A stretch of 64,000 nucleotides of DNA from positions 1 through 64,000 of the forward strand of contig JAPOYU010000131.1 in NCBI GenBank assembly GCA_026706395.1, written 5' to 3'. Position numbers and translations under genes: made by a program. Shown piece by piece: positions 24,379 to 49,624 of the stretch. This DNA comes from Chloroflexota bacterium (lineage in GTDB: Bacteria > Chloroflexota > Anaerolineae > Aggregatilineales > Phototrophicaceae). Positions within the stretch are counted from its first letter, which is position 1; the number at the start of each line of letters is the position of its first letter. Under the pieces are notes generated by a model that was not told the DNA's origin, ran no database searches, and saw only the letters and a program-made list of their open reading frames with translations.

Positions 24379-25434
24379 TCAGAGCAGCACCTCGCGGCCT
24401 GTTTTCTGGCTTTCGTAGATGGCGTTGAGGATCTTCAACACTTGCAGCGACTGCTCGGCGGGGACGGGCGAAGGCGCGCCATCGGCGATCGCCTGGGCGA
24501 ATTCGATGCATTCCTGCGCGTGCGGTTCAGCTACACGCGGCATCAGCTTCAGCTTGCGATTGTAAAGTTGCATGGCATCGTAATCGGTGTCGTAGACCTC
24601 GCATTTGGGCCAATGCGAGCCGCCGCCGGTGCCGTAGAGCCACATCTGCATATCTTCGCCATCAATGTCGTGGTGGAGCAGCCAGGAGATCTCGAAGACG
24701 AGGGTCGCGCCGGTTTCGAAGCGGACGAAGGCCATCGCCATTTCTTCCACGTCCATGCCGTCGGGGATGGGCCCGAAGCGGGGCCAGCGACCGAAAGCCT
24801 TGGGATTGCTGGCGAGTTCGCGGCGGGCGACGCCGGTGACCGAGACCGGTTCGGGATTGCCCATCATCCAGAGCGTCAAATCGAGGATGTGCACGCCAAT
24901 ATCAATACAGGCGCCGCCGCCGGCGTGTTTGGTGGAGAGGAAGGCGAGGCTGGTGGGGATGCCAGCGCGGCGCAGCATCCAACTGCGGGCGTGATATATA
25001 TCACCGAGCGCGCCACGATCGATCTCCGCCTTCAGCGCTTTGGAGGTGTCGGCGAAGCGAAAGTGCTGCGCGGTCATGAGCAGCTTGCCGCTTTTGTCGC
25101 GGGCGTCAATCATGCGCTGGACATCGGCCGGGGTGGGCGCCAGCGGCTTCTCGCAGATGACATGCTTGCCCGCCTCCAGCGCGGCAATGCTGAGATCGGC
25201 GTGATACATATTGGGCGTGCAGACATCGATGATATCGATATCCGGGTCGTTGATGACGGCGGCGCTATCGGTTTCGAGGCGGCTGACATTCCATTGTTCG
25301 CCCCAGCTGTCGAGCGCTGCGGTCACGAGGTCCGCTCCAGCGATGACTTCGGCATGGGGCGATGCTTCCCAGCCCGGCATATGCGTCCGCGCTATCCCGC
25401 CGACACCGATGACACCCACCTTTAATGTACTCAT
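24379..25434 (-). CDS. Gfo/Idh/MocA family oxidoreductase
   Basis: A 351-residue NAD(P)-dependent dehydrogenase acting on a sugar or sugar derivative. The Rossmann start is VGVIGVGGIARTHMPGW; the family signature EKPLAPTPADVQRM (EKP motif with catalytic-region Lys) follows at about residue 95; the substrate-side domain includes GGGACIDIGVHILDLTLWMMG with the conserved Asp-Ile-Gly-x-His pair. It ends KILNAIYESQKTGREV. It is encoded 16 bases after a second, divergent member of the same family, at the downstream end of the amino-sugar operon. The pair may act in sequence, or on different sugars. The substrate is unknown. Confidence 0.9.
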   Translation of the reverse strand: MSTLKVGVIGVGGIARTHMPGWEASPHAEVIAGADLVTAALDSWGEQWNVSRLETDSAAVINDPDIDIIDVCTPNMYHADLSIAALEAGKHVICEKPLAPTPADVQRMIDARDKSGKLLMTAQHFRFADTSKALKAEIDRGALGDIYHARSWMLRRAGIPTSLAFLSTKHAGGGACIDIGVHILDLTLWMMGNPEPVSVTGVARRELASNPKAFGRWPRFGPIPDGMDVEEMAMAFVRFETGATLVFEISWLLHHDIDGEDMQMWLYGTGGGSHWPKCEVYDTDYDAMQLYNRKLKLMPRVAEPHAQECIEFAQAIADGAPSPVPAEQSLQVLKILNAIYESQKTGREVLL

Positions 25435-25450: not shown

Positions 25451-26470
25451 TTATGATTTTTGGGGTTGAACCCAGGTATTTGTCGCCGCAGCTTGGTAAA
25501 AGGCAGCCATCACGGCGCTGCGGTCCGCCGCTTCTTTGGCCGAAATCAATGGCAGATCTTCGCCATTCAGCGCGTCCAGGAAGATATTGAAGGCGTGCGG
25601 CCCCGGCTCTGGCAAGTCCGTCCATTGGCCGCCATCAGCCCCCGAGAGATTATCCGACTTTACGAACAATTTTCCATTCTGAACATAGGCGACGCCCTCG
25701 GTGCCGCTGACCAGAACCGGCAGCGGGCTCAAGATATCAACCCAGCCGGCCGCCAGCGTGCCGATCGCGCCGTTGGCGAAGCGCAGCATGCCCTCGCCGT
25801 ATTCGTCACAGGAGTACTTGCCCAAGAGGCGATCCATCTGCGCGGTCACGCTCGCCACATCGCCCATCAGCCACATCAGGATGTCGAGAGAATGGGCGCC
25901 CAGGTCGCCAAAGCCGCCCATACCGGCACGCTGCATGTCGGTCATCCACAGCCAGCCTTCGTCATACCAGCCCTTGCCAGGATCAAACCAGCCGCCGATG
26001 GCGCCGTGATGCACATTGCAGTGGCGGACGCGCGTGATCGTACCAAGCGCGCCATCATCGATCCAACCCTTGAGCACGCGATTGAAAGGATAGCCGCGCA
26101 TGAAATGGCCGATGTGGAAAAGGACGCCAGCCTCATCAATGGCGCGCTGCATGGCGTAAGCGTCAGTTGCGGTGATGGCGAGAGGCTTTTCTACGAAGAG
26201 ATGTTTGCGCGCGGCAGCAGCGCCTTCGACCAGCTCGCGGTGAAGCGCGGTCTCCGAGCAGACGATGACGGCATCAATCTCGTCATCGCGCAGGATGTCG
26301 CGGTAGTCGGCTGCGACGGGACAGCCAGCGTGCCCGGCAGCGACGCTCGCCCGCGCCGGCTGATCATCCCAGAGGGTCTTGATGGCGAATTCGTTGGGAC
26401 GCTCAAGCACAGTTTTGATAAAGGATGGACTGTGGATGTGAGCGACGCCGAGGAATGCGAGTGTTTTCAT
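25451..26470 (-). CDS. Gfo/Idh/MocA family oxidoreductase
   Basis: A 339-residue NAD(P)-dependent sugar dehydrogenase of the Gfo/Idh/MocA family. It has a modified N-terminal Rossmann start (LAFLGVAHIHSPSF), in place of the usual GxGxxG, then FVEKPLAITATDAYAMQ with the EKP motif, and GGFGDLGAHSLDILMWLMG with the conserved Asp-x-Gly-x-His region. The altered dinucleotide loop is seen in members with atypical or tightly bound cofactor. It lies 31 bases after nanE and 16 bases before the next oxidoreductase, so it is part of the operon. Some members of the family process sialic-acid derivatives, but that is only a possibility here. Confidence 0.88.
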   Translation of the reverse strand: MKTLAFLGVAHIHSPSFIKTVLERPNEFAIKTLWDDQPARASVAAGHAGCPVAADYRDILRDDEIDAVIVCSETALHRELVEGAAAARKHLFVEKPLAITATDAYAMQRAIDEAGVLFHIGHFMRGYPFNRVLKGWIDDGALGTITRVRHCNVHHGAIGGWFDPGKGWYDEGWLWMTDMQRAGMGGFGDLGAHSLDILMWLMGDVASVTAQMDRLLGKYSCDEYGEGMLRFANGAIGTLAAGWVDILSPLPVLVSGTEGVAYVQNGKLFVKSDNLSGADGGQWTDLPEPGPHAFNIFLDALNGEDLPLISAKEAADRSAVMAAFYQAAATNTWVQPQKS

Positions 26471-26501: not shown

Positions 26502-27194
26502 TCAGGTTACTGACACATGTTCAATAGCGCTGACGAAACGGGCGGTGATGGTGCGCGGGCGGGTGATGGCCGAGCCCACTACGACTGACCATGCCCCAAG
26601 GTCCAGCGCTCGGCGCGCCTGCTCCGGGGTATGAACCCGGCCCTCGGCGATGACCGGAATCGGCAGGGCCTTGATCATCTGCCGCAACAGCTCAAAGTCG
26701 GGACCGTCCTGCGCCGGGCCATTTTCGGTATAGCCGGATAGCGTTGGCGCCGCCATTGCCACGCCGAGTTCGGCGGCCGCCTGCGCTTCGTTCAGGTTCG
26801 AGACATCGGCGAAAGTCGGCAGGCGCAATTCGCCGTGGATACGCGCCAGCAGATCCGCCAGCGGCACAGCATCCGGGCGCGGACGATTGGTGCAATCGAG
26901 GGCGATGATATCAGCGCCGGCTCCCGCGATTGCAGCGGCGGCGGCAAATGTCGGTGTGATGTAGACGCCGCTATTGCCCTGCTTGTACAAGCCGATCACG
27001 GGCAGATTGACCGCTTCTTTGATGGCGCGGATATCAGCCGGGCTATTGGCGCGTATGGCCACAGCGCCGCCGATCTTCGCCGCAGTTGCCATCTTCGCCA
27101 TGATCGCTGCGCCGTGCAGCGGTTCGTCTTCCAGCGCTTGGCAGGAGACGATCAGCTTGCCTTTGACGGCGGCGAGGAAGGCGTCGGCCTTCAT
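26502..27194 (-). CDS. nanE: N-acylglucosamine-6-phosphate 2-epimerase (ManNAc-6-P epimerase)
   Basis: A 230-residue (beta/alpha)8 enzyme of the NanE family, which converts N-acetylmannosamine 6-phosphate to N-acetylglucosamine 6-phosphate. The N-terminal [16 protein letters not shown], the [17 protein letters not shown] segment, [17 protein letters not shown] with the catalytic-region Lys, [12 protein letters not shown], and [21 protein letters not shown] are all typical. Length is normal. It overlaps the ROK kinase gene by four bases, which supports a kinase-epimerase pair as in sialic-acid catabolism. No N-acetylneuraminate lyase gene is present in the window, so the pathway may begin with ManNAc or another derivative. 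Confidence 0.92.
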
Positions 27195-28087
27195 ACGTCC
27201 ACCTTATGCCAGGCCAGCATGGCGGCGCCGAGCAGCACCGCCTCCACACCAAGCGCGGCCGGCAGCAAGGGCGTCCCGCGCAGCAGCGGCGGCAGGCTCG
27301 CGCGGAACGCGGCTGCAAAGGCATCACACCACAACGCGCCAATCTGCGGAACGCCCCCGCCCACTATTACAGCTTCCGGATTGATTGACGTGACATAGCC
27401 CGCCAGGATCTGGCCGAATCGTCGCGCCTTTTCCGCGATGATCATACGCGCCAGATCATCGCCGGCGGCCGCGCGTCGGCTGATCTCATTAAGCGGCGGG
27501 CCTTGATTAGCGCCGGTCGCTCTGTGATAAGCGCGCTCAATCGCGGGACCGGAACAGTACTGGTCGAGGATCAGGGGCTGATCGCCTTCCCAATCGACGA
27601 CCAGATAGCCGATCTCGCCAGCGCTGTAATGCGCGCCGTGCCAGACCGCGCCCTCCGCAACTATAGCGCCGCCGATGCCCGTGCCCACTGTGACGCAGAG
27701 CAGCGACCTGTATGCAGCGCCCGCGCCGACGGTCGCCTCGCCGAAGGCCATCGCCCGCACATCATTTTCCGCGCAAATCGGCAAGCCGCCGATATCGAGG
27801 GCGGCTAGTGCTGTGCCGGTCCAGCCCGGGATGTTGTCGTTGGCGTGAATCACGGTGGCGCTTGCCGTATCCACCATGCCGGCACAGCCAATGCCGATGC
27901 CGAGCACGGGCGCATCCGCCATGGCAATCAGCTGCTCGGCCAGCGAACGCGCGGCGGACAAAATCTCGGGCGGAGAGGGCGCGGTGGCGACTTGCCGGGT
28001 CCGCACGATTGCGCCATTGCGCGTCACCAAGCCAGCCAGCGTTTTACTGGCGCCGATGTCCAGGCCGATGACCAGCGATGAGCCCAT
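27191..28087 (-). CDS. ROK family sugar kinase (possible N-acetylmannosamine kinase)
   Basis: A 298-residue kinase of the ROK family. The phosphate loop is [17 protein letters not shown]; the catalytic Asp is in [27 protein letters not shown] and [15 protein letters not shown] are typical. The zinc-binding His of most ROK proteins is replaced: GEIGYLVV instead of GEIGH, and the CxCGxxGCxE cluster is missing ([18 protein letters not shown]). Such zinc-free members exist among bacterial kinases. Its four-base overlap with nanE makes ManNAc the likely substrate. The open frame extends to 28135, but the ATG at 28087 gives a family-like start. The ribosome-binding site is weak. Confidence 0.85.
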
Positions 28088-28194
28088 GGTCACAGCCGCT
28101 CGTCGGCAGCGATGTGGGCTTCCGTGCTCAGGCAAAACATCATACGCCCTCGGCCGCCGTAAATGTCGGTTTGATAGAAAGAAAAGCGGTCGCG

Positions 28195-28986
28195 CTAAGT
28201 CAGCTTCAAGAGCTCTTCCTGACCGCGGCGCTCGCGATAGCCGTGCACGATCAGACCGGGACGGCCGTTGCTTTGCCCGGCGACTTGATCGTTATGCGGA
28301 TCGCGGAAGCCCATGCGCACCATGCGACGCGGCTCATTCGTCTGGTTGATGTAGGAGCCGTGTACGGTGTAGATGTGGAACACCACAACATCACCGCGCT
28401 TGGCCGGCACGGGCACAGTGTCTTCCAGCTTGTAATCATTCGTGTTGAGGTGCGGCGAGCATGATGTTCCATCGGGATTCTTCAGGATATGCGGCAGTTT
28501 GCCCATTTTGTGCGAACCGGCCAGAAAGCGGATCTCGCCGTTCTCGTGGAAGGTATCATCCAGGTGAACCAGGGTATCGAGAAAGCGTCCATCGGCATGT
28601 TCGTAGAAAGGCGAATCCTGGTGCATGGGGAAAGGATGCCCGGTCTGCGGCGGTTTGATGTGCATGGTTGTATGATGCAATTCGACGCTGGAATCCAGCA
28701 ATTGCGACAGGCATTTGCCCAGTTTGGGATGGGTGACCGCGCGCATCCAGGCATCGGAGTACAGGTGCAGGTCGTGCATGGCGGTCAACTTGACTTGCTT
28801 TTCCACTTCCTCGTCCAGGTATACATCGCGCCAGGGTCCCGACCAACCCGGACTTGTGATAGACCAATCTTCGATCAGGCGGTCGAGGCTATCCGACAGC
28901 GCGGTGATCTCCTCTTCGTTAAAGACCTGCGGAATGCGCAGAAAGCCGTTTTCGTGAAAGAATTCGATCTGTTCTTTGCTGAGCAT
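28195..28986 (-). CDS. Phytanoyl-CoA dioxygenase (PhyH) family protein
   Basis: A 263-residue non-heme iron, 2-oxoglutarate-dependent dioxygenase. The iron triad is visible: H122 and D124 in MHQDSPFYEH, H209 in IYTVHGS. R220 or R221 in NEPRRMV would bind 2-oxoglutarate. The N-terminal QIEFFHENGFLRIPQVFNEEEI is typical of the PhyH family. GGAGACCCAA before the ATG at 28986 fixes the start; the frame continues upstream without family similarity. It lies between the ATPase fusion gene and the ROK kinase. PhyH enzymes hydroxylate many small molecules, so the role here may be to open or modify an imported amino-sugar conjugate. The substrate is not known. Confidence 0.88.
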   Translation of the reverse strand: MLSKEQIEFFHENGFLRIPQVFNEEEITALSDSLDRLIEDWSITSPGWSGPWRDVYLDEEVEKQVKLTAMHDLHLYSDAWMRAVTHPKLGKCLSQLLDSSVELHHTTMHIKPPQTGHPFPMHQDSPFYEHADGRFLDTLVHLDDTFHENGEIRFLAGSHKMGKLPHILKNPDGTSCSPHLNTNDYKLEDTVPVPAKRGDVVVFHIYTVHGSYINQTNEPRRMVRMGFRDPHNDQVAGQSNGRPGLIVHGYRERRGQEELLKLT

Positions 28987-29131
28987 TTGGGTCTCCTTTT
29001 TTTTGCTGACAGCAAATGGCAAATGGATGAGAAGAGGCGAATTGGCGCGCAAGCAAAAGTCGCCCCTTCTTGATAATCCGAGAAGAGGCAGAGCGCGAGA
29101 ATCTTACGGACTAATCTGCCAAGTTGCGATC

Positions 29132-31165
29132 TCAGGCATCAGAAATTGTAATGGTGTAAGCGTCGACGCCGCGGCCGCGCTCATCCGCGCCCAGCACGAG
29201 CTCATAGGTCCCGGTCGCGCCGAAAGTGAGTGTGCCGCTGTTGCTGCGGCGGGAACGATCGAAGGCAAAGACGATGCTGCCGTCCGGCGCGTAGATGGTG
29301 GCAAGCGGGGCAAAGAAGCCGGTGCCGCTCAGGCCGCGCCCGCCGGTGATGAGTTTGATATCCACCGTCGTCCCGGCGACGCCTTCAATGCTGTAGCTAT
29401 GGCGGTCGTCCACACTTTGGATTTCATCGCCGGTATCTTCGCCCAAGACGATGGCGCCCTTAGCGACCGCGCCCTCGCGCTCGACAACGAATGCCGGCGG
29501 CGGCAGCGTCGGCATGGGGGTCGGCTCCGGCATGTCCCCATCAATAGTGATGGTGTAGGCGTCGACGCCGCGGCCGCGCTCATCCGCGCCGATGACAATC
29601 TGATACGCGCCATCTGCAGCGAAGGTTAGCTCGCCACGATTGCTGCGGCGCGCGCGGTCAAAGGCGAAGACGATTTCCCCGTCAGGGTTGTAGATGGTGG
29701 CCAGCGGCGCATAGAAGCCGGTGCCGCTCAAACCGCGACCGCCAGTTATCAGCTTCAGCTCTACGGTCGCGCCTTCAAAGCCGGCGAAAGTATAGCTGTG
29801 CCGATCGTCCGCATTTTCGATCTCGCCGACGGTGTCCAGGCCCCAGGTGATGGATCCCTTGTCGACCGCCCCCGCCGGCTCGACAACGAATGCGGGAACA
29901 ATCACTTGCGATTCTGGCGTGGCGGTGGGTGGCGGGGTCGCTGTAGGCGGCTCAGTGGGCGGTATGGCCGTCGCCGTAACCACCACTTGCACCTCTTCGA
30001 CCACCGTTTCGACGATGGTCTCCGGTTCGCGCGTTAGAGAAAGCAACGCGCCCGCGATAAAAGCGACCACGACCAGGACAGCAGCTACAAGGCGTTCACG
30101 CTTGCGATTAGCTATCGATGCGACGGCCGCTTCGGTGATGGGCTGGTTCACGAGCATCGGCGGCTCAATCGGCGCGATCTCATTTTCTTCGTAGAGATAG
30201 CAAGCCGCTTCGTGTTTTGGCTTCTCCATCTTGAACAGGGGCGGCTGCGCTTCCAGGCATTTATCCATGCGATGGGGGCAGCGCGGATAGTAGCGACAGC
30301 CGATGGCGGCGGCGGTGCGCATCTCTTCTTCGCTGGGCAAGCTGATATTGACATCCCACTTGTCCGTCGGATCGGGAACCGGCACCGAGTCGATCAATAG
30401 CTGCACGTACGGGTGCTGGGGCGCGTCGATCACGTCCATCGCCGAGCCGCGTTCCGCCGTCGTGCCTTGATACAGCATGTAGATCTGATCGCCGATTTGG
30501 TAGGCGGTGCTCAAGTCATGTGTGATGTAAAGGAAGGAGATATTGTGTTCATCGCGCAGGCGCAGCATCGCATCGAGAATTGAAGCGCGTAGGGACGCGT
30601 CCACCATCGATACCGGCTCATCCGCCACGATCAGCCGCGGCTTGATCATGTAGGCGCGGGCCATCATGATGCGCTGGCGCTGCCCGCCGCTGAGTTGATG
30701 CGGGTACTTGCGCAAGACATCCTCGCCATAAAGGCCGACCACATTCAAGCCGGCTTCCACCATATCCCGATATTCGCTCTGGTTATCGGAGAGGCTGAAA
30801 TGCTTGTTGACAAGATCGAAGACATGGTCGATGCGGTAGAAGGGATTGTAGACGCCGAAAGGATCCTGAAAGACAGCTTGCACATTGCGGCGGTAGGCTT
30901 TCAACTGCTCGCTGGTCATATCGGTGATGTCTTCGCCATCAAAGATGATCTTGCCGGAAGTCAATTTGATGAAGCCGAGGACGAGGTTCGCCAGCGTGGT
31001 TTTCCCGCTGCCGCTCTCACCGGCGATCGTGGTGATCGTCGCCGGCGATTCGTCGATGGTCATATTAAAATTATCGAGGGCGACGACAGATTTTTTATCA
31101 CCGAGGAAGCCGCCGCTGGAATATACTTTGGTGGCGTCACGGATTTGCAATAGTGGCGAAGGCAT
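29132..31165 (-). CDS. Oligopeptide-type ABC ATPase fused to a membrane segment and two PPC-like beta-sandwich domains
   Basis: A 677-residue protein, about twice the normal length. Residues 1-325 form a DppF/OppF-type ATPase: Walker A GESGSGKT (49-56), signature LSGGQ (158-162), Walker B LIVADEP (178-184), H216, and the Cys-rich C-terminal oligopeptide motif (C290, C296, C303, C322). After KRER a single membrane helix follows (about 358-377). A Thr/Pro-rich linker (about 395-420) leads to two tandem repeats of about 115 residues (426-542 and 558-675) resembling bacterial pre-peptidase C-terminal domains; both contain KLITGGRGLSGTGF and GADERGRGVDAYTITI. The positive-inside rule puts the repeats outside. 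The start at 31165 has GGAGAGGAG upstream; it overlaps the previous ATPase gene by 29 bases. The frame is intact throughout. The function of the outer part is unknown. Confidence 0.9.
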   Translation of the reverse strand: MPSPLLQIRDATKVYSSGGFLGDKKSVVALDNFNMTIDESPATITTIAGESGSGKTTLANLVLGFIKLTSGKIIFDGEDITDMTSEQLKAYRRNVQAVFQDPFGVYNPFYRIDHVFDLVNKHFSLSDNQSEYRDMVEAGLNVVGLYGEDVLRKYPHQLSGGQRQRIMMARAYMIKPRLIVADEPVSMVDASLRASILDAMLRLRDEHNISFLYITHDLSTAYQIGDQIYMLYQGTTAERGSAMDVIDAPQHPYVQLLIDSVPVPDPTDKWDVNISLPSEEEMRTAAAIGCRYYPRCPHRMDKCLEAQPPLFKMEKPKHEAACYLYEENEIAPIEPPMLVNQPITEAAVASIANRKRERLVAAVLVVVAFIAGALLSLTREPETIVETVVEEVQVVVTATAIPPTEPPTATPPPTATPESQVIVPAFVVEPAGAVDKGSITWGLDTVGEIENADDRHSYTFAGFEGATVELKLITGGRGLSGTGFYAPLATIYNPDGEIVFAFDRARRSNRGELTFAADGAYQIVIGADERGRGVDAYTITIDGDMPEPTPMPTLPPPAFVVEREGAVAKGAIVLGEDTGDEIQSVDDRHSYSIEGVAGTTVDIKLITGGRGLSGTGFFAPLATIYAPDGSIVFAFDRSRRSNSGTLTFGATGTYELVLGADERGRGVDAYTITISDA

Positions 31166-32174
31166 CGGCTCTCCTCTCCTCAAATTGCTCGTCAAAGAGG
31201 TGACAAGCGACCTCGTGTTTTTCTTCGACTTGTAGAGGCTGCGGTTCGACCTCGGCGCAATGGTCCCAGGCAAAGGGACAGCGCAGCCGGAAGATGCAGC
31301 CGGAAGGAGGGTTGCGGGGATCGTGAGTGATGCCCTCGGTGATCTTTAGCGGTTTGCGTTCCTTGATCGATGGAATCGAGTCGATGAGCAGTTGGGTGTA
31401 GGGGTGCAAAGGGTTGGCGTAGACATTTTCGACCGGGGCGATTTCCACCATTTTGCCGGCGTACATCACAGCGATGCGGTCGACGATCTGCGCCAGCAAG
31501 CCCATGTCGTGGCCGATGACGATTAGCGATACGCCGATCTCATCTTTCACTTTGATCAAGGTCTGCGCCACGATGCGCTGCACGACGACATCAAGCGCGC
31601 TGGTCGCCTCGTCGGCGATGACCACCGTTGGATGGAGGGCCACGCCCATGGCGATGCAAACGCGCTGCTTCATGCCGCCGCTGAGTTCATGCGGATACAT
31701 ATTGTAGATGCGGTTAGGCAGACCGACATTCTGGAACAATTCAAAAATGCGCTCCCGCATGGCTTCTTTGTCGCGCTGTTTACCCTCGTGTGATTCGATG
31801 ACATCAATGATCTGATCTTTGACGCGCATGGTCGGGTTGAGCGAATTCATCGCCCCTTGCGGGATGAGCGACAAGCCCGTCCAGCGGAACTTGCGCAATT
31901 CTTCGTCCGTCAGGTTCAGCACTTCGGTGCCGTCGACTTCGATGCTGCCGTGCACGATGTAGCCGGGTGGCTGCACCAATTGTAGGATGCCATAAGCAGT
32001 GGTCGATTTGCCGCAGCCGGATTCGCCGACCAAGCCCAGGGTTTCGCCTTCGTAGAGATTGAAGCTGATATCGCTGACGGCGATGACATCGCCCTGTGGC
32101 GTGGCGTAGTGGATGCGCAGATTATCGACTTTGAGGACGACGCGCTCGCTGCCGTTTTCCATTTGCTTTTCCAT
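31137..32174 (-). CDS. Oligopeptide/dipeptide-type ABC transporter ATPase (DppD-like)
   Basis: A 345-residue ATPase of the oligopeptide family. Walker A is [10 protein letters not shown] (near residue 53), signature LSGGMKQRV, Walker B VVIADEATSALD; the C-terminal region has GCIFRLRCPFAWDHC, the cysteine cluster typical of DppD/OppD-type subunits. It would pair with the fused ATPase encoded next to it to drive the importer made of the two permeases upstream. Its stop is inside the next gene (29-base overlap). GGAG lies nine bases before the ATG. The family is named for peptides, but many members carry oligosaccharides; the surrounding amino-sugar genes favour a sugar ligand here. Confidence 0.92.
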   Translation of the reverse strand: MEKQMENGSERVVLKVDNLRIHYATPQGDVIAVSDISFNLYEGETLGLVGESGCGKSTTAYGILQLVQPPGYIVHGSIEVDGTEVLNLTDEELRKFRWTGLSLIPQGAMNSLNPTMRVKDQIIDVIESHEGKQRDKEAMRERIFELFQNVGLPNRIYNMYPHELSGGMKQRVCIAMGVALHPTVVIADEATSALDVVVQRIVAQTLIKVKDEIGVSLIVIGHDMGLLAQIVDRIAVMYAGKMVEIAPVENVYANPLHPYTQLLIDSIPSIKERKPLKITEGITHDPRNPPSGCIFRLRCPFAWDHCAEVEPQPLQVEEKHEVACHLFDEQFEERRADAFATIANP

Positions 32175-32193: not shown

Positions 32194-33132
32194 CTAACTG
32201 GCTTTGCGCAAGCGCGGATTGGCGATCTCGTCCAGGCCCAGGTTGATCAGCAGCAGAGCTACGAATACCACAGACAGAGTCACTGTCGGGATGCCCCACC
32301 ACCACCACATATTGCGGAAGAGAGCGCCCGCTTCTATGGAAAAGAAAATCGCGACGCCGAGGGAAGGGATGCGCTGTGGACCGAAGCCCAGCACCTCCAG
32401 GCCGACCGCCGAGATGATGGCGCCTTGCATATTGCCGATATAACTCGCCCCAAGGTAAGGCAGCAGATTGGGCATGATTTCCTTGAACATGATATCGCGC
32501 ACGGGCACGCCGGAAAGCCGGGCCATCTGCACGTAGCCGCTTTCGCGCATGCTGAGCACCTGGGCGCGGATATAGCGCGTCGGCGTCGCCCACGAGAATA
32601 ATGAGATCAGCAAAGCCATCGTCAGCAGGTCCACCCGCCCCAAAACAGCCTGTATAACGATGAGCACCAGAAGCGACGGGATGGTGATGGTGATATCGAC
32701 GGCTAATCGAATCACATCGTCGAACAAGCCGCCGAGAAATCCCGCCATGAAACCCAAAAATATGCCAACGAGCATGCCGACCGTGGCCGCGACCACGCCC
32801 ACGAAAATGGTTCGTGGCGTGCCGACGATCCAAAGCGCCAGCATGTCACGCCCGCTGTTCTCCGTGCCAAGAGGATGCTCCGGGACGCCTTCTTGCCCCC
32901 GCCAATTGGTAAAGCCGACGGGAGGCAGGTTAAGCGGCGCCCGGGCCGACAGCGCCATGTCCGTATCCCAAAACTGATAGCCGAGAAATATCAAAAAGAA
33001 CAGAAATCCCAGAATGCCGGCGCCAGTGAGAAACTTCCAATTGATCCAGGGATTGTCAAAACGATTGAGGACGCCCGCCTTCCTGGTGCCGCCGGCCACG
33101 GGAGCGTCTTTGGCTTTGCTGTCTTCGGCCAC
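32194..33132 (-). CDS. Oligopeptide-type ABC transporter permease (DppC-like)
   Basis: A 312-residue permease with six predicted membrane segments. The N-terminal hydrophobic helix (FLTGAGILGFLFFLIFLGYQF) is followed by the periplasmic loop HPLGTENSGRDMLALWI typical of DppC/OppC. The ATPase-contact EAA loop is around YVQMARLSGVPVRDIMFKEIMPNLLP. The open frame runs back to 33207 through a repeat. A GTG at 33132 has GGGAG six to seven bases upstream and gives a start (VAEDSKAK) that avoids repeat-derived residues; I prefer it. It lies 86 bases after the first permease gene, a gap made by a repeat insertion (see 33135-33239). Confidence 0.87.
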   Translation of the reverse strand: MAEDSKAKDAPVAGGTRKAGVLNRFDNPWINWKFLTGAGILGFLFFLIFLGYQFWDTDMALSARAPLNLPPVGFTNWRGQEGVPEHPLGTENSGRDMLALWIVGTPRTIFVGVVAATVGMLVGIFLGFMAGFLGGLFDDVIRLAVDITITIPSLLVLIVIQAVLGRVDLLTMALLISLFSWATPTRYIRAQVLSMRESGYVQMARLSGVPVRDIMFKEIMPNLLPYLGASYIGNMQGAIISAVGLEVLGFGPQRIPSLGVAIFFSIEAGALFRNMWWWWGIPTVTLSVVFVALLLINLGLDEIANPRLRKAS

Positions 33133-33134
33133 GT

Positions 33135-33239
33135 CTATCTCCCTTCCAGGCTGATAAGCGGTGTTCCCCCCAGCGGGGGGGCGTGGAGAGGGGAGTGTCT
33201 TTTGCATTTGAGCATGCGCTATCTCCCTTCCAGGCTGAT
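33135..33239. repeat. Hairpin element flanked by a perfect 21-bp direct repeat
   Basis: CTATCTCCCTTCCAGGCTGAT occurs at 33135-33155 and again at 33219-33239. The 63 bases between contain TTCCCCCCAGCGGGGGGG and GGAGAGGGGAG, a member of the GC-tract hairpin family. The downstream copy is the 3' end of the permease gene at 33219; the other copy holds the ribosome-binding site of the next permease gene. Confidence 0.75.
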
Positions 33240-34229
33240 GCGCGGGTCAATGAGCGGGTAGCTCAAGTCGATGATCAACACCGCCAGCGCGCTGGTCGTG
33301 ATCAAGATGAAAGATGTGCCTTGAATCAAGCCGAAGTCTTGCTCGCGCAGGGCGTTGACAATAAGCGTGCCCATGCCGTTGTAGTTGAAAATAACTTCGA
33401 CCAGCACCACGCCGTTGACGAGCGTGCCGATGGAGACCGCCAGCGCCGTCATCTGCGGCAAAATGGCATTGCGGATCATGTAGCGATACAAGACGTAGAA
33501 TGGCTTCAAGCCCTTGGCCTGCGCCAGGATCATATAATCTTCGCCTTCGATCGTGACCATCATGCCGCGCATGCCCAGCGCCCAATAGCCGAAGGTGACC
33601 AGCACAATCGCCATCGCCGGCAAGGTGCCATGATGAATGACGTTGGCGATGAATTCCAAGGTCAAGGCCGGCGTCTTACCGAAGCCGTAAGAATAGGTCT
33701 GCGGGAACCACCTTAGCAAGAACGCAAACGTATAGCTTAGCAGCAAACCGGCCAGCAAAGGAGGTATCGAAGTGAACATCATCGACATGGGGATCAACAC
33801 TTTGATCAATCTGGGCGTCCTCGCCCAGGCGAGCAGCGCGCCGCAGAGATTGCCGACGGTGAAGAATATGAAGGTCGCGACGCCGACCAGACCGATCGTC
33901 CAGGGCAGCGCCCGCCCCACCAACTCGGTCACGGTTGATGGAAATCGAGCCATCGAGTAGCCCAGATCTCCCCCCACCAGTCCAGTCAGGAAACGCAAGT
34001 ACTGAATGTAAACCGGGTCGTTTAAGCCGAAGCGTTCCTTCCAGCCCTCAATGATCTTATCCGAGTTTTCCACGAAACCAGCTTGATATGACAGGCGCGC
34101 CACCATCGCTGCGATAGGATCGCCGGGCGCCAGGCGCGGGATGATGAAGATCAAGGTCGCGGCCACCCAAAGCGTGAGGAAAAAGACCAATAGACGGCGG
34201 ACCAGATAGTTTAAGGATATTCCTCCCAT
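33219..34229 (-). CDS. Oligopeptide-type ABC transporter permease (DppB-like)
   Basis: A 336-residue permease of the DppB/OppB type. The N-terminal YLVRRLLVFFLTLWVAATLIF is followed by the family periplasmic region RLAPGDP and FGLNDPVYIQYLRFLTGLVGGDLGYS. The EAA-type loop is EDYMILAQAKGLKPFYVLYRYMIRNAILPQ. It forms the translocation channel with the DppC-like permease. The end of the gene (last 21 bases, SLEGR plus stop) is duplicated on the far side of a hairpin repeat. AAGGG about ten bases upstream supports the ATG; a GGAGG inside codons 2-3 lacks a suitable downstream start codon. Confidence 0.9.
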   Translation of the reverse strand: MGGISLNYLVRRLLVFFLTLWVAATLIFIIPRLAPGDPIAAMVARLSYQAGFVENSDKIIEGWKERFGLNDPVYIQYLRFLTGLVGGDLGYSMARFPSTVTELVGRALPWTIGLVGVATFIFFTVGNLCGALLAWARTPRLIKVLIPMSMMFTSIPPLLAGLLLSYTFAFLLRWFPQTYSYGFGKTPALTLEFIANVIHHGTLPAMAIVLVTFGYWALGMRGMMVTIEGEDYMILAQAKGLKPFYVLYRYMIRNAILPQMTALAVSIGTLVNGVVLVEVIFNYNGMGTLIVNALREQDFGLIQGTSFILITTSALAVLIIDLSYPLIDPRISLEGR

Positions 34230-34404: not shown

Positions 34405-36174
34405 TTACATGCCGTCGCCGGCTTTGTGGATCTCCTGGAAGAATTGATGCGTCGATTGCCACCAGGTAGCCGGGTGGTTCCAGTTATTCTCGGAAGTCGG
34501 CCAGCCGTCCCAGTAGGTGTTGTTGAAGGGGATCAGCTTGGTCGCCTGGTTCAGCGGAATGAAGGGCAGGTCTTCGTAGAGATAGCCATAGGCTTCAACC
34601 ACCAGATCAATGGCATCCGGATGACCCAGCGGCAACGAACCCAGTCGACCAACCAACTCGCTGTAAGCTTCGTTGTTCGGTCCGTCCCAACGTACGTGGT
34701 TGCTGCCCGTGGAACGATCGCCAACCGGCACCCACCAGCGGGCGGTGTAGCGGTCGAGCGAAGCCCAAGGCTCGTTGATCGAACCGCAGGCGTCCCAATC
34801 GGTGGTGGATTCGTAGTTGCCGAAGCGCTTGTTGTCGCCCCAGGTCGCGCCGGCGATGACCGCGGCGGAAGCCTCGATGCCGAAGCTCTGCAACTGCTCA
34901 ACCAGGTTGGTGGTGATGCGGCGCTTCTCGATGAAGCCCTCATGAACCTGGATTGCCAGGCTAAGCGCGTTGCCGTCCATATCGACCCAGCGGCCGTCGT
35001 CATTGCGCGAGTAGCCGTTGTTCTCCAGCAGCGCGGCAGCGGCGTCAAGGTCGGCCTCCGTATTGAAGGTCATGCCGGCATCTTCAATCGCATCGATGTA
35101 GGGGAACATACCGCCATATTCGACGTACAGAGTACGCGAGGGGATGGTAACGCCTTCGTAAGCGATGTCGATGACTTGCTGGCGGCTGATGGCGTGGTTG
35201 ATCGCCCAGCGCATTTCGGCATTATCCCAAGGCTCAACTTGCGTCTGGAAGGACAGTTGCCGCGGGCAGGGATCCAGCCAAACAAATGGCATGCCCTCGA
35301 CCCAGGCGAAGATGTTGTCGTTCGCCGCTTGCATCGCCTCAAAGGCGCCCAGCGTGACGTCCATGATGCTGTCCAGTTCGTTGGCGACAGCCATGGTCGT
35401 GCGGATCTGATCGTTACCGGTCACGACCCAGACGGCGCGCTGCGGTTCAGGCAGGTTGAAGACGCCCGTTTTGGCGCCCCACCAATCGTCATTGCGATCG
35501 TAGGTCCAAGAGGTCTCGTTGGCGGCGGTCAATACGTAGGGACCGGTGCCGAGCGGGTAACCGGCTTCGAGATCAAAGTACTTCCAGGTAAAGGGATCGA
35601 CATCGGGGCTGTCCCAGACGTGCTCGGGCAGGATACTGATGCCGCCCCAGATGCGGACCGAGAAGAAGTCCAACTGGAAGCGCGGGTTGGGCTGCGTCAG
35701 ATTGAATTGAACCGTCAGGTCGTCAACCTTCTCGACGCTTTCGATCCAGGTCTGTACGTTGCCGGCGTAGCTGAGCGAGCTGGTCTCGTCATTCAGCAGC
35801 AGGTTGATCGTCCAGACAACATCGTCGGCATTGAAGGCCTCGCCGTCCGCCCATTCCGCGCCGTCGCGCAGGTTCAGCATCCAGACGTCAAGCGCGTCGT
35901 TGGCTTCCATGCTCTCCGCCAGCCAGGGCATGATCTCGCCAGTTTCGTAGTTGAGGATGAAGAGCGGTTCCATTACGGCCTGATGCAAACCGTAGGGACG
36001 GCGGCTGTCGGGCAACAGATAGTTCATCTGGTCGAAGTTGGCGACGGCGCCCGCAGGACCGTCAACGTCGAATACGACGGTATCTTCACGCGCGACGTCC
36101 TGGGCAACAGCGGTGAAGCTGATGGCCGCGAAGACGATGACGAGAAGAACGAGAAGAAGTGCTTTTGCTTTCAT
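34405..36174 (-). CDS. ABC transporter substrate-binding protein, family 5 (DppA/OppA-like)
   Basis: A 589-residue extracytoplasmic receptor of the SBP_bac_5 family. Signal peptide 1-25 (MKAKALLLVLLVIVFAAISF, TAVAQ); no lipobox. Family features include the N-terminal MPWLAESMEANDALDVWMLNLRDGAEWADGEAFNADDVVWT region, where the ligand cleft wall starts, and NDETSWTYDRNDDWWG. The C-terminal part has NHAISRQQVIDIAYEG. GGAG nine bases upstream of the ATG supports the start. It is the first structural gene after the GntR/LacI-type regulator. With amino-sugar genes behind it, an oligosaccharide or glycopeptide ligand is more likely than a simple peptide, but this is inference. Confidence 0.92.
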   Translation of the reverse strand: MKAKALLLVLLVIVFAAISFTAVAQDVAREDTVVFDVDGPAGAVANFDQMNYLLPDSRRPYGLHQAVMEPLFILNYETGEIMPWLAESMEANDALDVWMLNLRDGAEWADGEAFNADDVVWTINLLLNDETSSLSYAGNVQTWIESVEKVDDLTVQFNLTQPNPRFQLDFFSVRIWGGISILPEHVWDSPDVDPFTWKYFDLEAGYPLGTGPYVLTAANETSWTYDRNDDWWGAKTGVFNLPEPQRAVWVVTGNDQIRTTMAVANELDSIMDVTLGAFEAMQAANDNIFAWVEGMPFVWLDPCPRQLSFQTQVEPWDNAEMRWAINHAISRQQVIDIAYEGVTIPSRTLYVEYGGMFPYIDAIEDAGMTFNTEADLDAAAALLENNGYSRNDDGRWVDMDGNALSLAIQVHEGFIEKRRITTNLVEQLQSFGIEASAAVIAGATWGDNKRFGNYESTTDWDACGSINEPWASLDRYTARWWVPVGDRSTGSNHVRWDGPNNEAYSELVGRLGSLPLGHPDAIDLVVEAYGYLYEDLPFIPLNQATKLIPFNNTYWDGWPTSENNWNHPATWWQSTHQFFQEIHKAGDGM

Positions 36175-36329: not shown

Positions 36330-37514
36330 TCAGGTCGATACAATTCTGCCGGCGTCCACGAGTGGCGCCGCCGTTGACGCGCGTATACGCAGCCGGGTTG
36401 GCACGGTACAAGTTCGGGCCGGCGAATCATCGCCTTCCAAGCGATCAAGCAAGTGCTCTGCCGCGGACTTGCCCAGTTCATAGGCATCTTGACAACTCGT
36501 AGTCAGGGGTACGCCAATGTACGACGCCATACAGATATCGTCGAAGCCGACAACTGAGACATCGGCTGGTACGCCATAACCCATGTTGCGCAAGGCATTT
36601 ATCGTGATTATGGCGAGAATGTCATTGATGCAGACAATAGCCGACGGCATTGGACCTTTGGCGTCGGTTAAGCTTTCAAGCTGTTGAATGATCTGTCGGC
36701 TCTGTGAACCAACCAGGCTGTAGATATCCGTCTCGTGAAATTCGTGGCGCTTGGGCGGGCTGATCTTCCACGGTTCATGGACCAAGATGCCATGCTCTTT
36801 TAGCGCGGCCAAATAGCCGCGCCGCCGTTCGTTGACCGGATGCAAGTCATCAAAATTGGGCATAAGTTGCACGATATGCCGGTGCCCCAACTCGATCAGA
36901 TGGCAAACTAGATTGTAGGAGCCATCGAAGTTATCGCTCGCGACGTAATCCGCTCGGATACCCTCGATGGGACGATCCATGAACACGACTGGAATCTCTC
37001 TACGTTCGTATTCCCCAAGAATGGAGACCGTTTCTTTGCTTGGCTCGGCATTTGCCCAAAGCATCAGCCCGGCTACCTCGTCGTCGAGCAGCTGTTGAAG
37101 AATCCGCGCCTCGTCATCCCGATCCCGCGAATTGCTGAATATCACTTGATAGCCGGCTGAACGAAGTTCTGTCTGGGCGCTATTGAGAATATTCGTGTGG
37201 ATCTCGTTGTGGAAACTGCAGGTTAGGTATCCGATGGTGCGGTTCGCCGCGTGGTCCTGCGGCTGGTAAACGACAAATGTACCTCGGCCGGCGGTACGTT
37301 TGATTAGTCCTTCTACCTCAATCCGCTGCAAAGCGATGCGCACCGTCGTACGGCTGATATCCAAATGGCGGGCAAGCTGCATCTCGGTCGGAATGCGCTC
37401 GCCATTCTGCCAGCGCCCGGAGACGATTAGACGGCGCAGTTGATTGTGCAACTGGACATGTAGGGAGATATAACTGTTGTGATCCAGCCGGATCTTCTCA
37501 AGTTTGTCGCGCAT
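36330..37514 (-). CDS. GntR-type DNA-binding domain fused to LacI-type ligand-binding domain (AraR-like regulator)
   Basis: A 394-residue transcription regulator. Residues about 10-75 are a GntR winged helix (LHVQLHNQLRRLIVSGRWQNGERIPTEMQLARHLDISRTTVRIAL); the rest is a LacI/periplasmic-binding-like sensor (RTIGYLTCSFHNEIHTNIL, VVFMDRPIEGIRADYVASDN, VSVVGFDDICMASY). This architecture is that of AraR from Bacillus. The sensor would bind a sugar released from the imported compound. The start at 37514 gives a family-like N-terminus; the frame reaches 37571 through the operator. The gene is directly upstream of the ABC operon on the same strand, 155 bases from the receptor gene. A perfect palindrome at 37551-37570 is its likely own operator. 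Confidence 0.88.
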   Translation of the reverse strand: MRDKLEKIRLDHNSYISLHVQLHNQLRRLIVSGRWQNGERIPTEMQLARHLDISRTTVRIALQRIEVEGLIKRTAGRGTFVVYQPQDHAANRTIGYLTCSFHNEIHTNILNSAQTELRSAGYQVIFSNSRDRDDEARILQQLLDDEVAGLMLWANAEPSKETVSILGEYERREIPVVFMDRPIEGIRADYVASDNFDGSYNLVCHLIELGHRHIVQLMPNFDDLHPVNERRRGYLAALKEHGILVHEPWKISPPKRHEFHETDIYSLVGSQSRQIIQQLESLTDAKGPMPSAIVCINDILAIITINALRNMGYGVPADVSVVGFDDICMASYIGVPLTTSCQDAYELGKSAAEHLLDRLEGDDSPARTCTVPTRLRIRASTAAPLVDAGRIVST

Positions 37515-37550
37515 AAAGACCGCATCGGCGAGCAAAAAACACTTTAGATT

Positions 37551-37570
37551 TGTACATAAATGTATGTACA
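37551..37570. promoter_or_regulatory. Operator-like palindrome upstream of the GntR/LacI-type regulator
   Basis: TGTACATA (37551-37558) and TATGTACA (37563-37570) are perfect inverted copies with a 4-base spacer. The half-site TTGTAC is the core of known AraR boxes, and the regulator has AraR architecture. It lies 37 bases before the regulator start and would overlap its promoter, so autoregulation is likely. Confidence 0.65.
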
Positions 37571-37762
37571 ATGCGCGAATATAACATGGACCAAATCAAG
37601 ATGCAATACAGGAAAAAATCCGAGTTTTGCCATAGCAAGCGCAACGATTGTCAAAGCGGTGTACTTTCTATGCCGGGTTTTGTGATATGATTCGCTTCGC
37701 TGTTGCGTCAATCTGTCAACCCGACAAGGTACCCGCCAAAGTAAACGAACGAGAGGAAGGCA

Positions 37763-41789: not shown

Positions 41790-43352
41790 ATGTCTGTGTA
41801 CCAGCCTGACTTCGGCGACATCGTCGACTTCGACCAACTGCGGCAGTCGATCCGCCATCTCTATGATTCGCTCCTGCCCGACTTCAATATGCACAAGTCA
41901 TTGCAAGTCGGCACGGAGCTGTACGGCGACGATCCCAGCGCCATGATCGCCGCCGGCGCCAGTATGCTCGCCTGGATGACCATCATCGCCGCCGGTGAAG
42001 ACGACATCGCCGAGGAGCTGAAGGACAGCCTCTTCACCCTGGGCTGGACCGAAGAAGAGATCGGCTCCGACTTGCTTAGCGCAACCACCGTTGCGACGCC
42101 GCTGAACGATGACCCGCATTGCGTCGACTACCACCTCCGAGGGCGCAAGTGGCTGATCAACAATTCATATCACGCCGATTATCATACGATCGTCGCCAAG
42201 ACCGATCCCAACTCCAGCGGGCCGCGCTCGCTCTCGATATTCCTGGTGCCGCAGAGCAGCTGCAAAAATTGGGAGCGGCTGGAGACGCACGTCCTGCGCC
42301 GCATGGTCTTGACCAGCTTCGACATCGATGGGCCGGGCCGCCTGCTGGGCAAGGTCGGGCACGGCTTGCAGATCCTCCAGCGCATGGCGATGCCGAGCAA
42401 GTATCAGTGCGCCTACGTCGGCGTCAAGCTGCTGAACGAAGCGATACCGGCCAGCATCGAGCACCTGTCGAAGAAGCGCATCTTCAAGGAAAACCCGATC
42501 AACTTCAGCAACGTGCTGCGGCAGATGTACAACCTCGTCCTGCAAAGCGCGGTGCTGAATTTCATCTATTACCGCGCCCTGGCCTTCAGCGCCGGCAGCT
42601 TTCTGCAGTTTCACGGCGTCATGCTGAAGTCCTGGCTGCTGCTGCGCGCCAACGAGCTGCTGGGGCAGAACCTGCTGGTGGTCGGCTCGAAAGGCTTCCT
42701 CGCCGAGTCTGTCATCGGGCGCAACGCCATCGATTCCTTCGTCCTGCCCGTCTTCGATGGCCACTACACCATCAACACGCTGATGACGGCGAAACACGCC
42801 AAGCGCTACCTGGGGGCGGAACGCCGCGCTGATGTGGCGGAACGGATGGCGACCTTGCGCCACGGCGTCACATGGTCGCGCTCGGGCGATCAGATCCGCG
42901 CCCACTCCCGCAAGCTGCGCAATCCCGACTTCTTTGATTACGCGGGCTATATCGAAGACCTGGCGCTGCCCATCGACCTGGACGCGCGGCAAGTGGTCGC
43001 CTCCATGCAAGCGCTGGCGGATGAGCTCGGGGAACGCGACTTGATGAATGACCCGGAGCATCGCTACAAACTCGGCACGATGCTGCACTGGATGGAAGCC
43101 CTGCTGGCGGCCTGCGAAATGTGGAAAGCCACCGAAGAAGAGGAATTCCTCAACGCCGTCGTCATGCAATACAACGCTTTCGTCAATCAGTTCAACCAGA
43201 TCATCAGCGAGAGCGCCCTGCGAACGCGCTTCCTGCCTTTGATGCGGCAGCGCTCCCTGCGCCGCGTCGAGGCGCCGCGGGACTTTCTGCTGCGGCTCTA
43301 CAACCTGGCGCAGCAATTCGCCGCCCCGCGCGAGGCGGCCGTGGCGAAGTAG
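41790..43352 (+). CDS. Acyl-CoA dehydrogenase-like flavoprotein (AidB-like), paralog 1
   Basis: A 520-residue protein resembling the acyl-CoA dehydrogenase superfamily, with the AidB-like layout. The FAD-binding middle domain is seen in LGWTEEEIGSDLLSATTVATPL, the HLRGRKWLINNSYHADYHTIVAKT block and RSLSIFLVPQSS. LETHVLRRMVLTSFDIDGPGRLLGKVGHGLQILQRM resembles the segment before the C-terminal helical domain. The last 150 residues are helical and not clearly conserved in the family. It has its own promoter. The paralog encoded at 45087 is similar throughout. The substrate is unknown; in AidB-like proteins dehydrogenase activity is weak and some bind DNA, so catabolic function should not be assumed. 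Confidence 0.82.
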   Translation: MSVYQPDFGDIVDFDQLRQSIRHLYDSLLPDFNMHKSLQVGTELYGDDPSAMIAAGASMLAWMTIIAAGEDDIAEELKDSLFTLGWTEEEIGSDLLSATTVATPLNDDPHCVDYHLRGRKWLINNSYHADYHTIVAKTDPNSSGPRSLSIFLVPQSSCKNWERLETHVLRRMVLTSFDIDGPGRLLGKVGHGLQILQRMAMPSKYQCAYVGVKLLNEAIPASIEHLSKKRIFKENPINFSNVLRQMYNLVLQSAVLNFIYYRALAFSAGSFLQFHGVMLKSWLLLRANELLGQNLLVVGSKGFLAESVIGRNAIDSFVLPVFDGHYTINTLMTAKHAKRYLGAERRADVAERMATLRHGVTWSRSGDQIRAHSRKLRNPDFFDYAGYIEDLALPIDLDARQVVASMQALADELGERDLMNDPEHRYKLGTMLHWMEALLAACEMWKATEEEEFLNAVVMQYNAFVNQFNQIISESALRTRFLPLMRQRSLRRVEAPRDFLLRLYNLAQQFAAPREAAVAK

Positions 43353-45086: not shown

Positions 45087-46631
45087 ATGCACACCATTAA
45101 AGACCCGCAGTTCGGCGACATTCTCGATTATCAGCGCCTGCGCGCCGGCATGATGGACGTGCTGGACAACGTCTACCCGACCTTCAACCTGATGGGCTCC
45201 ATGCTGGTCGCCACCCGCCATTTCAAGAACAACCCCAGTTATATGACCGCCTGCGCCGCCAGCGGACTGGCTTATATGATGCTGGTCGCCGCCGAAGAAT
45301 ACGAGTTGGCGGCCAAGCTCAAGGGCAAGATATTCACCCTGGGTTGGACGGAGGAGCACACTGGCACCGACCTGCTCAGCATCCGCACCCGCGCGACGCC
45401 CATCGCTGACGATCCGAGCGGCAAGCGTTATCACATCAAAGGGCAAAAGTGGCTCATCAATAATTCCTACCACGCCGATTATCACTCCGTCATCGCCAAG
45501 GTCGATCCGGCCGCCGATGGTCCCCGCTCCCTCTCGATATTCGCCGTCCCGCATAGCAGCACTTGTGACTGGCAGCGTTTGGAAACGCACGTCCTGCGCA
45601 GCATGGTCCTGACCAAGTTCGATATTGACGGCCCCGGCATCCTGATCGGCCAGGTGGGGCGCGGCCTGGAGATCTTGCAGCGGATGGCCCTGCCATCGAA
45701 ATACCACTGCGCCTATATGGGCGTGAAAATGGTGGACGACTCCCTGCCCGCCGCCATCGAGCACCTGTCGACCAAGAGCATCTTCGGCGACAATCCCATC
45801 GCCTTCAGCAATGTCTTCCGCCAGCTCTACAACCTCGTCCAGCAAGCGGCGCTGATCAACTTCTCCTTCTTCCGCGCCCTGGCCTTCAGCGACAGCCCCT
45901 TCCTGCAATTTCACGGCATCATGCTGAAATCATGGCTGCTGCTGAAATGCAATGAGATACTGTCGCAGAATCTGCTGGTGACCGGCTCGAAAGGCTTCCT
46001 GAAGGCTTCGAATATCGGCGGCAACGCTATCGATTCCTTCGTCTACCCCGTTTTCGACGGGCATTACACGCTCAACACCCTGCTCACCTATAAACATACG
46101 CGCCGCTACCTGGAAGCGACGGCGAAAGGCGATATCGCGGAGCGGATGCGCATCCTGAGCGAGAACGCCTATGTGCCGCTGGAAGGCAAGCAGATCCTCA
46201 ACAACAGCCGCGAGACCCGCCGCCCGCCTTTCTTCGACTATGCCGATTACATCAAGCGCTGCGCCTTGCCGATCGACCTCGACGCCCGCCTCTTGATTCG
46301 GGCGGGGGCGGGCATCATGGACGCGATTCAAGACCGCGCCGCCACCAACGAACCCGAGTACCGCTACAAAATCGGCATGCTGGTGCACAATCTGGAGGCC
46401 CTGCTATCGGCGGTGGAGTTGTGGAAAGTGACCGCCAACGACAACTATCTCAACGCCATCATCATGCAATACAACGATGTCGGCAAGCTGATAAACCGCA
46501 TCATCAGCGAGGGCGACCTGCCGGTGGACTTCATCGAGCCGCTGCGTCAACTGCCGCTGCCCAATGCCGAAGACCCGCAGGGCTACCTGCTGAATCTGCT
46601 TGACGTGAAAGGGCAGATTCGGCCTGATTGA
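45087..46631 (+). CDS. Acyl-CoA dehydrogenase-like flavoprotein (AidB-like), paralog 2
   Basis: A 514-residue paralog of the protein encoded at 41790. Shared blocks include FTLGWTEEHTGTDLLSIRTRATPI, YHIKGQKWLINNSYHADYHSVIAKVDP, ETHVLRSMVLTKFDIDGPG and the C-terminal LVHNLEALLSAVELWKVT. The T(E/D)xxxGTDLL-like region is where the flavin sits in the superfamily. AGGGGGG derived from a repeat serves as ribosome-binding site. The two paralogs flank the AT-rich island, which suggests tandem duplication followed by insertion of the island. Substrate and pathway are unknown; it converges with the aldolase gene at 46676. Confidence 0.82.
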   Translation: MHTIKDPQFGDILDYQRLRAGMMDVLDNVYPTFNLMGSMLVATRHFKNNPSYMTACAASGLAYMMLVAAEEYELAAKLKGKIFTLGWTEEHTGTDLLSIRTRATPIADDPSGKRYHIKGQKWLINNSYHADYHSVIAKVDPAADGPRSLSIFAVPHSSTCDWQRLETHVLRSMVLTKFDIDGPGILIGQVGRGLEILQRMALPSKYHCAYMGVKMVDDSLPAAIEHLSTKSIFGDNPIAFSNVFRQLYNLVQQAALINFSFFRALAFSDSPFLQFHGIMLKSWLLLKCNEILSQNLLVTGSKGFLKASNIGGNAIDSFVYPVFDGHYTLNTLLTYKHTRRYLEATAKGDIAERMRILSENAYVPLEGKQILNNSRETRRPPFFDYADYIKRCALPIDLDARLLIRAGAGIMDAIQDRAATNEPEYRYKIGMLVHNLEALLSAVELWKVTANDNYLNAIIMQYNDVGKLINRIISEGDLPVDFIEPLRQLPLPNAEDPQGYLLNLLDVKGQIRPD

Positions 46632-47461: not shown

Positions 47462-47540
47462 GGGATTGCCCTCGGTTGAAACGAAGCGCCCTCATGCTGG
47501 ATTGAACTGGAGCGGGCGCATGAATGCGGCGCTTTTCCTA

Positions 47541-49611: not shown

Positions 49612-49624
49612 GTCGTCGCCTCGG

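Follow-up and report, generated by a model that had tools for sequence, protein, structure and literature searches.

An ATP-binding cassette (ABC) importer ATPase that runs on, through a membrane helix, into two beta-sandwich repeats is encoded in the 64,000-nucleotide stretch of a Chloroflexota bacterium analysed here (contig JAPOYU010000131.1, positions 1 to 64,000; hereafter the window). Comparison with related sequences indicates that this fusion is a genuine, clade-wide, stable and selected architecture with a single origin. The earlier note on this DNA had called it the window's best candidate for an undescribed transport architecture, and no description of an importer ATPase with a helix and a PPC tail was found in the open-access papers searched. 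Our preferred reading, to which we assign a probability of roughly 0.4, is that the tail could serve as an outward-facing binding or anchoring module which ties the importer to an extracellular polymer.

The fused chain and its origin

The gene and its parts are as follows.

29132..31165 (-): whole fusion gene, 677 codons and a stop; one uninterrupted frame with its ATG at 31165 and its stop at 29132
30191..31165 (-): ATPase domain with [4Fe-4S] region, residues 1-325, from Pfam, closest solved relatives and motif invariance
30995..31021 (-): Walker A motif GESGSGKTT, residues 49-57, invariant in 25/25
30680..30694 (-): signature LSGGQ, residues 158-162, invariant in 25/25
30614..30634 (-): Walker B motif LIVADEP, residues 178-184, invariant in 25/25
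30200..30298 (-): four-cysteine [4Fe-4S] site, C290, C296, C303 and C322, invariant in 25/25; the cluster is predicted
30092..30190 (-): predicted cytoplasmic juxtamembrane segment ending in NRKRER, residues 326-358, from sequence and alignment
30032..30091 (-): predicted single membrane helix, residues about 359-378, from hydropathy and predicted structure
29897..30031 (-): acidic, then Thr/Pro-rich linker, residues 379-423, from sequence and alignment
29531..29896 (-): PPC-like repeat 1, residues 424-545
29135..29497 (-): PPC-like repeat 2, residues 557-677, from a PPC score of 22.3 bits, predicted local distance difference test (pLDDT) values and 71% identity to repeat 1

These parts and positions agree with the earlier note, which had read one 677-codon frame with a full ATPase, a basic stretch, a helix, a Thr/Pro linker and two repeats. 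The start codon has GAGGAGAGGAG shortly 5' of it, and the gene overlaps the preceding partner ATPase gene by 29 bases. In the window protein, Pfam finds a single ABC_tran stretch (residues 32-185, E 7e-27) and a single oligo_HPY stretch (residues 238-303, E 4e-16, 59.6 bits against a cut-off of 27.1), and the closest solved relatives of the domain are OppD/DppD of Mycobacterium tuberculosis and the DppF/OppF chains of Escherichia coli. Motif invariance was counted in 25 aligned fusions, a subset of the matches to the tail search described below. The cysteines are spaced 6-7-19, and the residue numbers given in PMC12136057 correspond to spacings of 6-7-17 in E. coli DppF and 6-7-18 in DppD. By these sequence features, residues 1-325 make up a full DppF/OppF-class importer ATPase.

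The tail search found 53 proteins, 49 of which are listed with both ATPase domains. A genome scan covering one genome per species (84,980 species) with two exact peptide patterns (MMARAYM and DPTDKWD), which misses relatives without MMARAYM or DPTDKWD, returned 59 loci. The fusion is encoded by 33 of these (L001-L033), spread over 32 bins because L028 and L031 come from the same bin; in 32 of them a stop codon closes the frame, and in one the frame runs off its contig. L034-L056 encode more distant, tail-less ATPases, of which 21 are of ordinary length, with 318-343 amino acids, while L047 has 256 amino acids from a chosen start and L054 is cut by its contig; the distant matches L057-L059 were left out of the analysis. 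Within the same family, 98 genomes gave 33 matches, from 32 of them, with at least 80% identity in the ATPase C-terminus, all in frames of 634-903 amino acids. A further 18 matches showed 55-68% identity, 17 of them in frames of 335-388 amino acids and one in a 121-amino-acid frame at a contig start.

A tree was built from 55 ATPase domains, 21 unfused and 34 fused (that of the window among the latter), with L047 and L054 left out. In it, the fusions lie on one side of a branch with a support of 100/100, which corresponds to one gain and no loss. The best 120 of the 7,991 matches to a length-restricted search were 93-99% identical over the ATPase and 375-880 amino acids long, 112 of the 120 reaching at least 600. 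Seven of the eight shorter entries among those listed were read: three have a single repeat, two are frame-changed after the helix (P0056 and P0059), and P0079 ends inside the helix and P0117 inside the first repeat, perhaps because their contigs end there.

The earlier note had named a missed stop codon or frameshift at the join, or homologs with the two parts always in separate genes, as findings that would speak against the fusion. The same join stands in 33 loci from 32 bins, in separate assemblies without a stop or frameshift there, which rejects an assembly join or missed stop. A tail encoded as a separate neighbouring gene is likewise rejected for the six unfused genomes searched with the repeat profile, none of which has a tail gene near its ATPase: the profile gave no match in G013 and G057, and in G009, G021, G024 and G045 it gave weak matches only, on contigs other than that of the ATPase. 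With these results and the lengths of the long ATPases listed, we give practically no weight to an assembly or gene-calling artefact that joined two genes.

Loss of the tail was considered for G085 and G089, two genomes that stand among the fused ones in the list but gave no close match, and rejected. Their best permease identities are 38% and 50%; the fused controls G087 and G096 reach 95% and 77%. It therefore seems to be the operon, not just its tail, that both genomes are missing; their clade membership was taken from list order, and G097-G099 were not followed. No second ATPase with this tail was found among the 91 oligo_HPY matches in three clade genomes (37, 32 and 22), of which the frames of 416-473 amino acids were not read. 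The frames of more than 600 amino acids among them comprise three that are the fusion, six with two oligo_HPY matches each and two with one. One of the latter two, L096, is an ATPase with an upstream open frame. The other, L095 (1156-3582, minus strand, contig G001:C116, from a close relative), is by eye a permease-ATPase fusion, with an OppC-type permease that continues into an importer ATPase within a single open frame of 809 residues.

Fold, evolution and position of the tail

The predicted structure of the repeats (pLDDT blocks of 58-92, most of them 78-92) is nearest to PPC and collagen-binding domains, at 9-21% identity. By this prediction the repeats, which are about 121 residues long and present in two copies in the window fusion, have the beta-sandwich fold of those domains; fold similarity alone shows no function. 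The PPC profile (PF04151) scores residues 587-657 of the window protein at 22.3 bits, below its cut-off of 25.9, and reaches 29.8 bits in the relative L020. Against solved sequences, the repeat profile gave just three short weak matches, to WD-40 repeat or beta-propeller entries.

The two repeats of the window protein share 71% identity, whereas the first repeats of the window and its closest genome share 98%. The duplication in the window protein is therefore older than the split from that genome, which contradicts the earlier claim that it was recent. When 86 repeats of 33 proteins were compared (L020 left out), repeats of the same protein averaged 79% identity (73 pairs), same-position repeats in different loci 62% (1,246 pairs) and other pairs 59% (2,336 pairs). 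Identity within proteins thus exceeds that between the same positions of different loci, a pattern of concerted evolution across the clade. Repeat number varies: counted by motif among the 33 fused loci, three repeats are present in 20 and two in 12 (one of them truncated), L020 has three divergent repeats when read by eye, and single-repeat copies exist as database entries (P0089, P0115 and P0123).

In 16 ortholog pairs, the ratio of nonsynonymous to synonymous substitution rates (dN/dS) is 0.074-0.341 for the tail (median 0.13) and 0.008-0.063 for the ATPase; these are simple pairwise estimates, and homogenisation of the repeats makes the tail dS less reliable. By these estimates, the tail is under purifying selection, less tightly so than the ATPase. 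The linker is long and evolves fast. Conservation of the fused ATPase domain, in turn, is unusually high, both in its dN/dS and in its identity of at least 93% in the 120 long relatives listed, and usually exceeds that of the partner ATPase, the permeases and the binding protein.

A hydrophobic segment starts at residue 356-360 in all 33 fused loci, with an additional, weaker valine-rich stretch in L018. Structure prediction gives a helix there at modest confidence (pLDDT about 51-71); in the full-length prediction the ATPase part was unusable, the input alignment being too uniform. The aligned fusions have conserved Arg/Lys before the helix and conserved acidic residues (Glu) after it. Since the ATPase is cytoplasmic and is followed by one helix with this distribution of charges, the tail should be extracytoplasmic in the living cell, which supports the earlier picture of a cytoplasmic motor covalently tied to an outward module.

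Independent support for a tail on the outside comes from the export features of other frames that carry the repeat. In a search of 20 genomes with the repeat profile, strong matches were confined to the fusion gene and weak matches occurred in 18 other frames, of which all ten that were fetched start, by eye, with an export signal, a lipobox or a membrane helix. In addition, the HtrA-type protease P0054 (483 amino acids), which has a LysM domain and an export signal, bears a single copy of the tail repeat (77% identity) at its end, so a further exported protein carries the module.

The importer operon and the rest of the window

The fusion is encoded together with an SBP_bac_5 protein, two permeases and a second ATPase, as in oligopeptide and dipeptide importers. 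The genes around it all run leftward, in the order given here, with the fusion between the partner ATPase and the PhyH gene.

36330..37571 (-): GntR-HTH/LacI-type sugar regulator, from Pfam and NCBIfam
34405..36174 (-): SBP_bac_5 substrate-binding protein (SBP), with an export signal but no lipobox Cys by eye, from Pfam
33219..34229 (-): permease 1 (BPD_transp_1), from Pfam
32194..33207 (-): permease 2 (BPD_transp_1), from Pfam
31137..32174 (-): partner ATPase of ordinary length, 345 amino acids, from Pfam
28195..29052 (-): PhyH-type 2-oxoglutarate dioxygenase, downstream of the fusion in the same direction, from Pfam
27191..28135 (-): ROK-family sugar kinase, from Pfam; below the NCBIfam curated cut-offs of named kinases
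26502..27194 (-): NanE, putative N-acetylmannosamine-6-phosphate 2-epimerase (PF04131, E 2.5e-58; NCBIfam 284 bits against a cut-off of 189)
25451..26470 (-): Gfo/Idh-type dehydrogenase 1, below the NCBIfam curated cut-offs shown; position conserved
24379..25434 (-): Gfo/Idh-type dehydrogenase 2, below the NCBIfam curated cut-offs shown; position conserved

In 32 of the 33 loci with a fusion PhyH lies downstream, L018 being too short to reach it; ROK and NanE are found in 25. L006, L007 and L017 have PhyH and the dehydrogenases without ROK or NanE matches, in L004 no match follows PhyH, and the contigs of L005, L030 and L033 are short. As far as their contigs extend, the unfused Anaerolineae retain the regulator, the SBP, the permeases and the two ATPases; their loci gave no PhyH, ROK or NanE matches, and L056 among them has both dehydrogenases (50% and 61%). 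Judged by its genes, the operon is probably an (amino)sugar-oligosaccharide importer. Its likely cargo is an amino-sugar or manno-configured oligosaccharide, because NanE scores over its cut-off and, among solved binding proteins with a named ligand, the nearest are specific for mannosides (4pfu) or chitin oligosaccharides (1zty). The binding protein and permeases come in two types, seemingly exchanged as a block between close relatives (for example L010/L011/L024 against L013/L016/L026).

The two other oligopeptide-type importers of the window have ordinary ATPases (353 and 339 amino acids, and 357 and 357) and no such tail. An SBP_bac_5 importer operon at 55047-62766 contains a sulfatase with an N-sulphoglucosamine sulphohydrolase C-terminus (57076-58485), and its gene content suggests uptake of sulfated glycosaminoglycan-like sugars. 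The third gene set, at 46676-52576, is of the dipeptide type and has ATPases of ordinary length together with HpcH/HpaI and RraA-like aldolase genes. Elsewhere, two proteins of similar size (520 and 514 amino acids, at 41790-43352 and 45087-46631) have the acyl-CoA dehydrogenase middle domain as their sole Pfam match under E 1e-5. A 669-codon frame at 52544-54553 on the plus strand is without a Pfam match under E 1e-5; opposite it, a 636-codon frame (52628-54538) on the other strand was not scanned.

Possible roles of the tail and known systems

The sequences show that an OppF/DppF-type ATPase acquired a C-terminal helix and a PPC-fold array in a single event and that its descendants have retained them. 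In the preferred reading, the ATPase would sit cytoplasmically on the permeases as usual, the chain would pass through the membrane a single time, and one to three PPC domains would stand outside beside the channel on a flexible linker. These domains would form a non-catalytic binding or anchoring module and attach the importer to an extracellular polymer, either the cell's own envelope or a host glycoprotein or collagen-like matrix. Such anchoring could concentrate importers where substrate is released and keep this ATPase permanently at the membrane. Variable repeat number (1-3) with homogenised repeats, as in modular binding arrays, counts for a binding role. A more specific form, in which a symbiont would carry a collagen- or glycan-binding matrix array on the motor of a self-anchoring sugar importer and so couple attachment with uptake, seems to us quite doubtful.

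The earlier note had suggested that the tail may hold the receptor near the channel, and a docking scaffold could keep there a soluble binding protein that would otherwise drift away for want of a lipobox. The lipobox Cys is absent from all 28 fused-locus binding proteins read and from that of the window, but the binding proteins of the unfused Anaerolineae L035, L036, L037, L051, L053 and L056 are without a lipobox as well; four Caldilineaceae binding proteins have one. Docking was addressed indirectly by co-variation in the 20 of 33 fused loci with all components found, where binding protein and permeases change together (distance correlations of 0.81-0.92). With ATPase, PhyH and Gfo2 distances removed, the partial correlation of the first repeat was 0.41 with the SBP, 0.41 and 0.57 with permeases 1 and 2, 0.01 with the partner ATPase and 0.54 with the regulator. 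The regulator cannot touch the tail, which tracks it at least as closely as it tracks the binding protein; permease 2 is about level with the regulator. Mismatched pairs also speak against docking, since L024 and L026 share 72% identity in their binding proteins and 93% in their first repeats, and L001 and L010 share 90% and 43%, respectively. Other pairs count for docking and slightly against the preferred reading of a polymer-binding module: the corresponding values are 72% and 71% for L010/L013 and 73% and 68% for L010/L026, and of three close pairs with differing binding proteins two differ in the tail too and one keeps its tail type. This test is mixed and lends no clear support to docking of the tail on its own binding protein, a role that we consider rather unlikely.

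A sensor, through which a ligand outside would signal via the helix to the ATPase and gate transport, would accord with the covalent link to the motor and with the extreme conservation of the linked ATPase; the long, fast-evolving linker would be a poor rigid transmitter, however, and repeat number varies, and we regard this role, too, as quite doubtful. It is also conceivable, if unlikely, that the helix alone matters, anchoring the ATPase or helping it to assemble, with the PPC array tolerated as a stabiliser. In favour of this, the helix is present in 33 of 33 loci and PPC domains commonly have accessory roles; against it, the array is under purifying selection, and a clean form with the helix alone is not among the seven short database entries that were read. 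Finally, the fusion could be made and then cut after export, leaving ATPase and tail to act apart. Although PPC domains are often processed in proteases, the single-chain gene is kept through the whole clade, and we consider cleavage improbable; no tool-based search for a cut site was made.

Some of the Chloroflexota that carry the fusion apparently live in marine sponges. The bin prefixes COS, RHO and CAR on 10 of the 33 fused loci may be read as sponge-host initials of the study by Robbins et al. (PMC8163846). Sponge Anaerolineae and Caldilineae are described as broad in carbohydrate uptake (Bayer et al., PMC6306507), and fibronectin-binding genes, in Anaerolineae among others, as sharing their distribution with genes for the use of sialic acid and glycosaminoglycans (Robbins et al., PMC8163846); the link between attachment and feeding is suggested there because separate genes have a taxonomic distribution in common. 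Habitat alone is not a simple explanation, since Caldilineaceae loci of the same sampling series are tail-less (L043 compared with L003, and L044 with L030). If the module binds host or envelope polymers, attachment and feeding would be linked in sponge symbionts. Importer ATPases are textbook cytoplasmic parts, and this clade offers a natural setting for asking whether the complete transporter can be positioned or regulated by its motor subunit from the opposite side of the membrane.

DppF and OppF of E. coli and OppD/DppD of M. tuberculosis share with the window fusion the same ABC_tran, oligo_HPY and four-Cys domain and the same operon logic. The E. coli chains have 327-336 amino acids and the M. 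tuberculosis chains two ATPase stretches, whereas the window fusion has 677 amino acids, its helix and two repeats breaking the class feature of a soluble chain that ends after the [4Fe-4S] domain. To our knowledge, a membrane helix and outside domains are not part of DppF, OppF, OppD or DppD, and the fusion scores below the curated cut-off for all 25 of the NCBIfam models shown (179 were matched). Two-in-one ATPases of the GsiA and YejF type have two ATPase halves per chain, the window fusion only one. The PPC domains and the collagen-binding domains of clostridial collagenases, similar in fold to the tail repeats at the low identity given above, sit, where known, on secreted enzymes and not on an importer motor. 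The cyanobacterial nitrate and bicarbonate importer ATPases NrtC and CmpC (682 and 665-690 amino acids) also have a long extra part at the C-terminus and match the fusion at the ATPase only; that extension is a solute-binding-protein-like domain on the cytoplasmic side and is not known to include a membrane helix. In importers of the GlnPQ and OpuABC type, an outside domain is covalently tied to the transporter, but it is a solute-binding protein fused to the permease rather than to the ATPase. The fusion is apparently an undescribed combination, in which a known importer ATPase class carries a new outside module.
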